From Lishizhenia tianjinensis (GTDB lineage Bacteria; Bacteroidota; Bacteroidia; Flavobacteriales_D; Crocinitomicaceae), in NCBI RefSeq assembly GCF_900116425.1, contig NZ_FPAS01000001.1:62001-126000 (forward strand): a DNA stretch of 64,000 bases, in the 5' to 3' direction. The position numbers and the translations under genes are program-made. This document shows, one piece after another, positions 35,080 through 36,422 of the stretch (its first letter is position 1; each line of letters starts with the position of its first letter). The notes under the pieces were generated by a model. It did not search any database. It saw only the letters and a program-made list of their open reading frames with translations, and had not been told where the DNA came from.

Positions 35080-35118
35080 GGAAAGAAGAAATGTGTTTCT
35101 ACATATAGAATTATGTGG

Positions 35119-35164
35119 TTTTAACCACGGAGAACACTATGGTTTTACACAAAGGGCACAAAGG
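35119..35164 (+). repeat. left terminal inverted repeat of the GxxExxY cassette
   Basis: Starts TTTTAACCAC and ends AAGGGCACAAAG. Together with 35629-35673 in reverse complement it forms an imperfect inverted repeat of about 45 bp. The outer 10 and a 9-nt inner block (GGGCACAAA) match exactly. Confidence 0.8.
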
Positions 35165-35165
35165 A

Positions 35166-35546
35166 TTAAAGTGAGCCATTTATGACTCGTTTAATACCAT
35201 GTTTTAGAAGGACATTGTTGAAGTTGATGAGTAAGCCGAGTTTGAAATTACCCAGTTTTAAATACGTGAGCGTTTGTGCAAGATGAATATCATTTAAAGA
35301 TTCAACACTTTTTATTTCTATAACGAGTTTGTTTTCGACAAGTAAATCTATTCTGTAGCCACAGTTTAAGTGGACTTCTTTATAGACCAGGGGTATAGGT
35401 TTTTCTTTTTCTGTATATAGTCCTTTTTCTGATAAAGTGAAGTACAGGCATTCTTTATAGGCCGACTCAAGAAGCCCTGGACCGAGTGCGTTATGAACGG
35501 TTATGGCACATCCAATTACAGTCTTTGCGAGTTGATTTTCATTCAT
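35166..35546 (-). CDS. GxxExxY protein
   Basis: A 126-aa protein with the family signature GPGLLESAYKE (about 22-32) and the downstream YRIDLLVENKLVIEIKS and LKLGNFKLGLLINFN segments. The Asp and Glu/Lys pattern of the second segment (IDLLVENKLVIEIK) resembles a PD-(D/E)xK nuclease core. That link and any nuclease activity are inference; the family has no established function that I know. The gene lies alone between two long inverted repeats, with its stop only 2 nt from the left one, which suggests a mobile cassette. Confidence 0.88.
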   Translation of the reverse strand: MNENQLAKTVIGCAITVHNALGPGLLESAYKECLYFTLSEKGLYTEKEKPIPLVYKEVHLNCGYRIDLLVENKLVIEIKSVESLNDIHLAQTLTYLKLGNFKLGLLINFNNVLLKHGIKRVINGSL

Positions 35547-35628
35547 GAGGTTAGGTTTTGTAACTTAAGATAAGGTTAATTTATAGATATTTAAAATAAA
35601 AGAAGGTTCATGATTTACGATGAGATAT

Positions 35629-35673
35629 CTTTGTGCCCTTAGTGAAAAGCTTTGTTTCCCTTTGTGGTTAAAA
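35629..35673 (+). repeat. right terminal inverted repeat of the GxxExxY cassette
   Basis: Reads CTTTGTGCCCTT ... GTGGTTAAAA, the reverse complement of the left repeat with scattered mismatches. No matching target duplication is visible outside either end. Confidence 0.8.
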
Positions 35674-35837: not shown

Positions 35838-36422
35838 ATGAACAGTTGGTACACCGTAAAGGTTAAATATACAAAGCAAATGGAGGATGGAACGTTAAAG
35901 CGCGTTACTGAACCTTATTTGTTAGATGCGGTATCTTTTACAGATGCTGAAGCAAGAATTTACGAAGAGTTAGGAGAGCAAATTCGTGGGGAGTTTTTGG
36001 TAACCGGAATTTCTAAAACGGATTACGCAGACATTTTCCACTACGAGGACGCAGATTACTGGTACAAGTGTAAGGTAACTTACGTTTCTGTAGATGCAGA
36101 TTCTGGGAAAGAGAAAAAGGTATCGAACAACTTCTTGGTAACGGCTGCTAATGCAAAAGAAGCTTACGAAAGAATAGAGGAAAGTTTAGAATCTATGTTG
36201 GTGAGTTTTGAAATTCCAGCGATTGCTATTTCACCTATCATTGACATCTTCCCATTCAACCCTGATTTAGACAGAGAGTTGGATAGAAGAGAAATGACAG
36301 ACGAGGAGAAGGAAGAATACAATGAGTCTAGAAACCCTCCAGTATTTACAGCTTCTGGAGATGACGAAGATGAAGTTGAAGAAACGGTAGAAGAAAGTAC
36401 ATTTACTGACGAAAGCGAGTAA
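35838..36422 (+). CDS. DUF4494 domain protein
   Basis: A 194-aa cytosolic protein of the DUF4494 family found across Bacteroidota. It starts MNSWYTVKVKYTKQMEDGTL and has an internal duplication (YTVKVKYTKQ at 5-14 and YKCKVTYVSV at about 76-85, each followed by an alanine-rich AEARIYEEL or AKEAYERIEE helix). The C-terminal 40 residues are acidic and disordered. Function unknown. It is the first gene of a tight plus-strand trio with pdxH (1-nt gap) and an M16 peptidase. A TACATTTG box at 35808-35815 lies 22 nt upstream. Confidence 0.85.
   Translation: MNSWYTVKVKYTKQMEDGTLKRVTEPYLLDAVSFTDAEARIYEELGEQIRGEFLVTGISKTDYADIFHYEDADYWYKCKVTYVSVDADSGKEKKVSNNFLVTAANAKEAYERIEESLESMLVSFEIPAIAISPIIDIFPFNPDLDRELDRREMTDEEKEEYNESRNPPVFTASGDDEDEVEETVEESTFTDESE

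Follow-up and report, generated by a model that had tools for sequence, protein, structure and literature searches.

GxxExxY genes, their flanking heptamer arrays and dispersed intergenic repeats: a candidate nuclease-and-repeat system

REP and REPIN sequences, together with the TnpAREP (RAYT) gene, constitute the REPtron, in which a conserved gene lies beside inverted repeats and cognate copies of these repeats are dispersed in intergenic DNA; the source papers further describe foldable inward doublets, a repeat number that follows the presence of the gene, and co-evolving types (PMC3116915; PMC8266576). Another layout is displayed by the 23S rRNA intervening sequence with an S23 four-helix protein, which is about 0.4 kb long, carries a single small ORF and inverted repeats, and is called selfish, its role being unclear (PMC4990558). 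Further, the Rpn (YhgA-like) PD-(D/E)XK nucleases have been tied to DNA movement, in an account whose accessible portion makes no mention of cognate dispersed arms (PMC5350276).

In this work, we characterized a GxxExxY gene enclosed by inverted arms within the window, i.e., the whole stretch of 64,000 nucleotides of the Lishizhenia tianjinensis genome that was analysed, and compared it with GxxExxY loci from other genomes. The system resembles the REPtron in its dispersed cognate repeats and inward doublets. However, the REPtron enzyme is an HUH tyrosine transposase, whereas the GxxExxY protein is a predicted PD-(D/E)XK nuclease with PF13366 as its sole Pfam match at E 1e-3; the REPtron repeat is a palindrome of 20-50 nt with a GTAG or CGTC tag, whereas the GxxExxY arms are heptamer arrays behind TTAAC (103 arms); and, as a further difference, many genomes of the order and phylum sets described below hold several diverged copies of the GxxExxY gene. 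Unlike the 23S rRNA intervening sequence, the window element is flanked by protein ORFs on both sides and encodes a protein of another Pfam family. The Pfam family also differs from that of Rpn, the PF04754-type domain being absent from the matches of the window protein at E 1e-3, and the GxxExxY system does possess cognate dispersed arms. With insertion sequences and MITEs it shares terminal inverted repeats and gene-less derivatives. We group the system with REP/RAYT or MITE elements, although its enzyme is that of neither. A literature search, with most subscription journals lying outside it, returned no link of GxxExxY to repeats or mobility, and no paper on PDDEXK_3; the retrieved passages that mention GxxExxY contained nothing about mobility, and the arm sequence strings matched, in the excerpts returned, other subjects only or nothing.

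The window element and its predicted nuclease

Table 1. Positions, in the window, of the GxxExxY element and its surroundings.
Feature	Position	Strand	Description	Basis or remark
Left arm	35119..35163	+	TTTTAACCAC, then inward-pointing CRCRRAG-type heptamers	Similar copies elsewhere in genome
Right arm	35629..35673	-	Inverted copy of left arm; outer end GTGGTTAAAA	
GxxExxY gene	35166..35546	-	126 aa, predicted PD-(D/E)XK nuclease	
Stretch from start codon to right arm	35547..35628	.		Open-reading-frame and arm coordinates
GTGG directly outside left arm	35115..35118	+		Outer-tip comparison among arms
Conserved neighbour ORF	35838..36422	+		Relatives read: no arm upstream, no GxxExxY match beside

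A repeat search of the window yielded two inverted arms of 45 nt each, 73% complementary and separated by 465 nt (Table 1). Left and right arms are identical at 33 of 45 positions, and the best value among 200 dinucleotide shuffles of both flanks was 27 of 45 (0/200 as high), so that the inverted arms of about 45 nt with scattered mismatches, described in the first-pass annotation, were corroborated. The position given there for the gene was right in one part, since only 2 nt separate its stop codon from the left arm, and not quite right in the other, namely that the gene fills the interior, as 82 nt remain between its start and the right arm. Heptamers of the form CRCRRAG are located in the arms at 35126, 35148 and 35157 (forward strand) and at 35629 and 35660 (reverse strand); both arms are worn relative to many solo arms. 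Across the whole window the heptamer was not enriched (30 occurrences vs 40 for the backwards control), and thus its signal at the element is local.

The product of this gene, which is present as a single copy in the window genome, matched PF13366 (PDDEXK_3; E 1.6e-41, 141.8 bits vs a cut-off of 22) and TIGR04256 (GxxExxY; E 2.9e-43, 146.9 bits vs a cut-off of 35). Residues H18, D67, E77, K79, Q91 and Y95, which we take to be the RecB/Cas4 motif set, were invariant among 69 sequences. When the AlphaFold model (pLDDT 95.9) was compared using VIA-align, the best structural match was Cas4 SSO0001 (4ic1; Z 10.0, rmsd 4.5, 103 aligned), followed by 3ijm (Z 8.6); restriction enzymes and the Holliday junction resolvase Hjc ranked lower. 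Below the first two, the rows were tied, and any assignment to a nearest nuclease subfamily is accordingly tentative. The best Foldseek hit had an E of 4.2e-3, with none at 1e-3 or below, and no solved relative was retrieved by sequence search (best E 0.59). Both traits of the PD-(D/E)XK superfamily, i.e., the fold and the D...ExK residues (D67, E77, K79), were found, and the nuclease core suspected in the first-pass annotation is therefore supported by the model, the structure comparison and the invariant residues; the prediction is a PD-(D/E)XK nuclease of the Cas4/RecB-like type. The QxxxY motif, typical of Cas4/RecB-type nucleases, is common to Cas4 and GxxExxY. A four-cysteine iron-sulphur site is also a feature of this type; the 126-aa GxxExxY protein differs in having a single near-invariant cysteine, C33 (69 sequences), and thus gives no sign of such a site.

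Heptamer arrays beside GxxExxY genes and away from them

Reading of other loci, among them 28 of a set of 30 (L055 and L068 omitted), showed the arm unit to be a heptamer, CRCRRAG, which recurs at short intervals and is preceded on its outer side by TTAAC. The bases immediately outside the outermost heptamer in 103 arms were T (77%), T (73%), A or T, A (75%), and C or A, with conservation declining about six bases out. Counting also a T-ending heptamer, at least two correctly oriented heptamers were present on both sides of the gene in 82 of 130 GxxExxY loci, and in one with the backwards control. These 130 were the usable members of a set of 133 that does not include the window (80 species-collection, 30 window-order, 20 further and 3 plasmid loci), with a few duplicates (L043/L276, L051/L289, L066/L292). 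Other heptamers or spacings account for some, not all, of the 48 loci failing this two-sided count. An earlier subset gave 43 of 78 usable loci (from 80, two having short flanks), the backwards control giving 0. Inverted heptamers were densest within 50 bp of the gene, at 15/kb upstream and 25/kb downstream, and fell to 0.2-0.5/kb beyond 1 kb. Thus, arms of the same kind do accompany GxxExxY genes elsewhere, which the first-pass annotation had proposed to check in other Bacteroidota, and they do so in several phyla; the record titles of the 80 species-collection loci span ten phylum-level groups in the 69-row tree, some being bins with possibly foreign contigs. Arms also occur at plasmid copies of the gene from Bacteroides and Bernardetia, and a Sphingomonas plasmid copy, located between fabD and fabG, has heptamers on both sides by eye, but does not qualify under strict counting, since one arm is overlapped by the gene as annotated.

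Carriage by phages was rejected: no GxxExxY match was obtained in 50,697 phage records, and among viral contigs one of 32 pattern matches was confirmed as GxxExxY, a copy that does have arms. Two features of individual loci may be added. In six of the 80 species-collection loci (L074, L114, L132, L138, L145, L150) the GxxExxY frame is shortened, by decay or by a wrong start assigned by the script, and at a Flavobacterium hungaricum site (L157) short arm units lie in tandem beside the gene.

The number of arms was related to gene presence in two collections, namely 299 genomes of the window's order, 87 of them with the gene, and 296 genomes drawn across its phylum, of which 152 carry this evidently common gene; three genomes of the latter are also in the former. 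At least two matches to the arm pattern were found in 42/87 order-set genomes with the gene vs 4/212 without it (Fisher 3e-22; backwards control p 0.67), and in 80/152 vs 5/144 of the phylum set (p 3e-23; backwards control p 0.32), these p-values overstating independence since the genomes are related. In total, phylum-set genomes with the gene held 916 matches vs 32 in those without. The difference was also present in the window's family alone (27/54 vs 1/63), and upon removal of its largest gene-poor genus (27/51 vs 1/21). Furthermore, 50 gene-bearing genomes taken from the species-collection loci contained 355 arm matches, distributed over 39 genomes with at least one, and a single match for the control. 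Fewer than two strict matches occurred in 45/87 (order) and 72/152 (phylum) gene-bearing genomes, a shortfall for which other heptamers or spacings account in part. Conversely, at least two arms without a detected gene were seen in G004, G013, G185 and G271 of the order set and in G480, G529, G530, G533 and G560 of the phylum set, where the gene may have been lost, the assembly may be incomplete, or the arms may have moved in trans.

In the window genome, the strict arm pattern gave five matches (control 0), and copies without the gene comprise singles, a tandem run (C8:72.4-76.0 kb) and an inverted pair (C8:211855/212013). The loosest pattern, with two mismatches allowed, was near background (94 vs 70 for the backwards control) and was therefore excluded from the evidence. 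A GG-ending tip (TGG, CGG or GGG) lies just outside 17 of the 21 distinct arms that a relaxed expression collected in the stretches read from this genome, vs 6 of 69 arms in other genomes, which indicates that the arm repeat exists here in a version particular to the window genome; the two arms of the window itself failed the expression and were excluded. Between C8:71500 and 77500, units of about 0.4 kb contain one arm each, the arms being amplified within larger tandem repeats. Degenerate AT-rich runs of short period (ATTCAANNATTCAA, TTTAGA.., CTAGA..) adjoin several arms of this genome and have the look of additional iterated repeats that are likewise dispersed.

Among the arms listed, those within 150 bp of each other formed 18 inward, 0 outward and 15 tandem pairs, and the doublets listed measured 45-126 bp from start to start. 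An outward pair does occur in the window genome (C2:301530/301579), its second arm being below the strict pattern. Among 52 arms hand-chosen from the listings (L259 unscored; the pairs and runs L209-L215 and the run L225 excluded), two or more inverted heptamers were present on the inner side in 15/51 and on the outer side in 2/51. Long hairpins were predicted for five Flavobacterium doublets chosen by hand (z -7.5 to -14), and a window-genome doublet folds no better than chance (z -1.6). The close arm pairs are REPIN-like doublets.

Gene and arm types are also paired. The first spacer was common to both arms in 18 of 26 elements, with 7.3 expected (permutation p 2e-4), these being the elements with clustered heptamers on both sides among 110 examined; in strictly adjacent inward pairs, identical spacers were found in 8 of 18, with 3.3 expected (p 0.007), a modest match. 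The seven loci with T-ending heptamers fall in two gene clades, requiring two changes on the tree vs a shuffled mean of 6.9 (0/500 as low), in a test of 89 of 92 labelled loci, 38 loci being unlabelled, and on a quick, poorly resolved gene tree where several T-heptamer rows are long branches. Genome G127 holds both heptamer types, each with a different gene lineage.

Sites with and without the element

Sites lacking the element, which the first-pass annotation had suggested looking for, were found in three settings. The right-hand neighbour of the window element (Table 1) was read at 19 loci in relatives, and at 17 of 17 in-frame loci (L170 and L177, off frame at contig ends, were excluded) its upstream 700 bp contained at most one heptamer; no GxxExxY match lay beside it among the relatives' loci listed. 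One Flavobacterium site was compared in 13 genomes, of which seven hold the gene, three in one orientation and four in the other, and five lack it, some of these with leftover arms; in the thirteenth genome the flanks are apart. Genes in the forward orientation are about as similar to one another as their flanks are (87 vs 86/84% and 85 vs 84/81% identity), whereas reverse-orientation genes are not (75-78% vs 81-90%), although those included in the tree belong to a single gene clade. Either inversion or independent insertion may account for the two orientations. As judged from dN/dS values of 0.03-0.10 where computable, the gene is under purifying selection at this one Flavobacterium site.

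At a third site (L113), the element was present in 3 of 20 loci, query included, and absent from 17, of which 13 had no CRCRRAG heptamer within the stretch read and 4 did. The L113 element begins and ends with TTAA and adjoins the stop codon of the upstream gene. Insertion sequences generate a target duplication; here TTAA stands at both ends and is self-complementary, so a duplication would be indistinguishable from the ends of the element. In another species (L199), the same site is occupied by a gene-less palindromic element of CACGAAT-like heptamers with a TTAA start.

Insertion sequences also carry a transposase and occur as near-identical copies, whereas the GxxExxY element carries no transposase, its gene has one copy in the window genome, and within-genome copies elsewhere are 47-72% identical (20 copies; G127, G659, G021, G290). 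The initial reading of a simple transposon or MITE carrying a cargo gene is not supported as it was worded, considering this divergence, the many arms located away from the gene, purifying selection at one site, and element ends that reveal no distinct target duplication; a plain insertion sequence with cargo was rejected on the divergence in these four genomes and on selection at the Flavobacterium site. With gene copies diverged within genomes, REP/RAYT is a closer parallel to the element than is an insertion sequence that is active.

A proposed nuclease-and-repeat system and its alternatives

We consider it fairly probable that GxxExxY and its arms constitute a nuclease-and-repeat system that works like REP/RAYT with an unrelated enzyme. 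Its autonomous form, of about 0.5 kb, would consist of TTAAC with a heptamer array, one small PD-(D/E)XK nuclease gene and an inverted array, and its gene-less forms, located between genes, would be the inward arm doublets, arms on their own and arms in tandem. The nuclease would recognise the heptamer arrays that belong to it, in the form of a duplex, a hairpin or a cruciform, and would cut at them, whereupon host repair could copy or re-insert the arm unit at AT-rich, TTAA-like sites, some insertions presumably occurring directly behind a stop codon; the gene itself would move rarely and would be maintained by selection. The nuclease would drive the spread of the arms and perhaps its own, the latter having been raised in the first-pass annotation. 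If the pairing of gene and arms holds, GxxExxY would gain a function, none being stated in the papers found; a large set of intergenic repeats would be explained; a REP/RAYT-like lifestyle would have arisen with a quite different enzyme; and the DNA target of a small nuclease would become predictable, which makes for a simple test. A broader version is offered tentatively, being plausible and somewhat short of probable. Here GxxExxY would define a class of bacterial mobile DNA, widespread and so far undescribed, that relies on no other enzyme: through cutting followed by template-switch repair, the Cas4/RecB-like PD-(D/E)XK nuclease would multiply its cognate hairpins of heptamer arrays and, on rare occasions, the gene that encodes it. 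Nuclease and heptamer alphabet would co-evolve, with several types per genome, and unrelated small proteins, e.g., a four-helix-bundle family, would have arrived independently at such a layout, each with iterated arms that are its own.

The main rival, which we regard as unlikely, is a free-standing homing gene that uses older arrays: the arms would be independent repeats that the nuclease cuts and into which repair copies the gene, serving as landing sites and not being spread by it. The gene-less arms found where relatives hold the gene (L159, L160; L191, L192, L195, L198), the two gene orientations at the Flavobacterium site, and the diverged copies with no recent amplification in four genomes agree with such a gene. 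However, arm number is near control level in genomes without the gene, and the heptamer variant tracks the gene clade, for which an independent repeat has no need. Rather improbable, in turn, is a regulatory or structural role, where the arrays would be bound by the GxxExxY protein or a host factor, or would serve as terminators for either, with self-control of the gene and chromosome work elsewhere; although the arms are intergenic in the loci read, some of them behind stop codons, and such roles are reported for RAYT-linked REPs in PMC8266576, the presence or absence at the same site between relatives, the tandem runs, the inward doublets and the patchy spread across phyla look like selfish copies and not like a fixed regulon. 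That chance or unrelated intergenic repeats happen to lie beside an ordinary gene is scarcely credible, since the worn window arms and the background-level counts (94 vs 70 with the loosest pattern in the window genome, 30 vs 40 over the window) that suit this idea are confronted with family-wide strict-pattern tests and their controls (42/87 vs 4/212; 43/78 vs 0; 80/152 vs 5/144; 82/130 vs 1).

Apart from GxxExxY and the nuclease-and-repeat system we propose for it, the window genome contains another family of small proteins whose genes are laid out alike, between arms of a different kind. Seven genes of the four-helix-bundle family PF05635 are located on C6, C8 and C9 (L269-L275), and four of them (L269, L270, L271, L275) are enclosed by inverted arrays of a short motif that is theirs alone, an arrangement reached in 0 of 300 shuffles. 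A row for L166, with a slip in its coordinates, was left out of this comparison; for the remaining loci, the shuffles did so in 5/300 (L272), 26/300 (L274) and 101/300 (L273).
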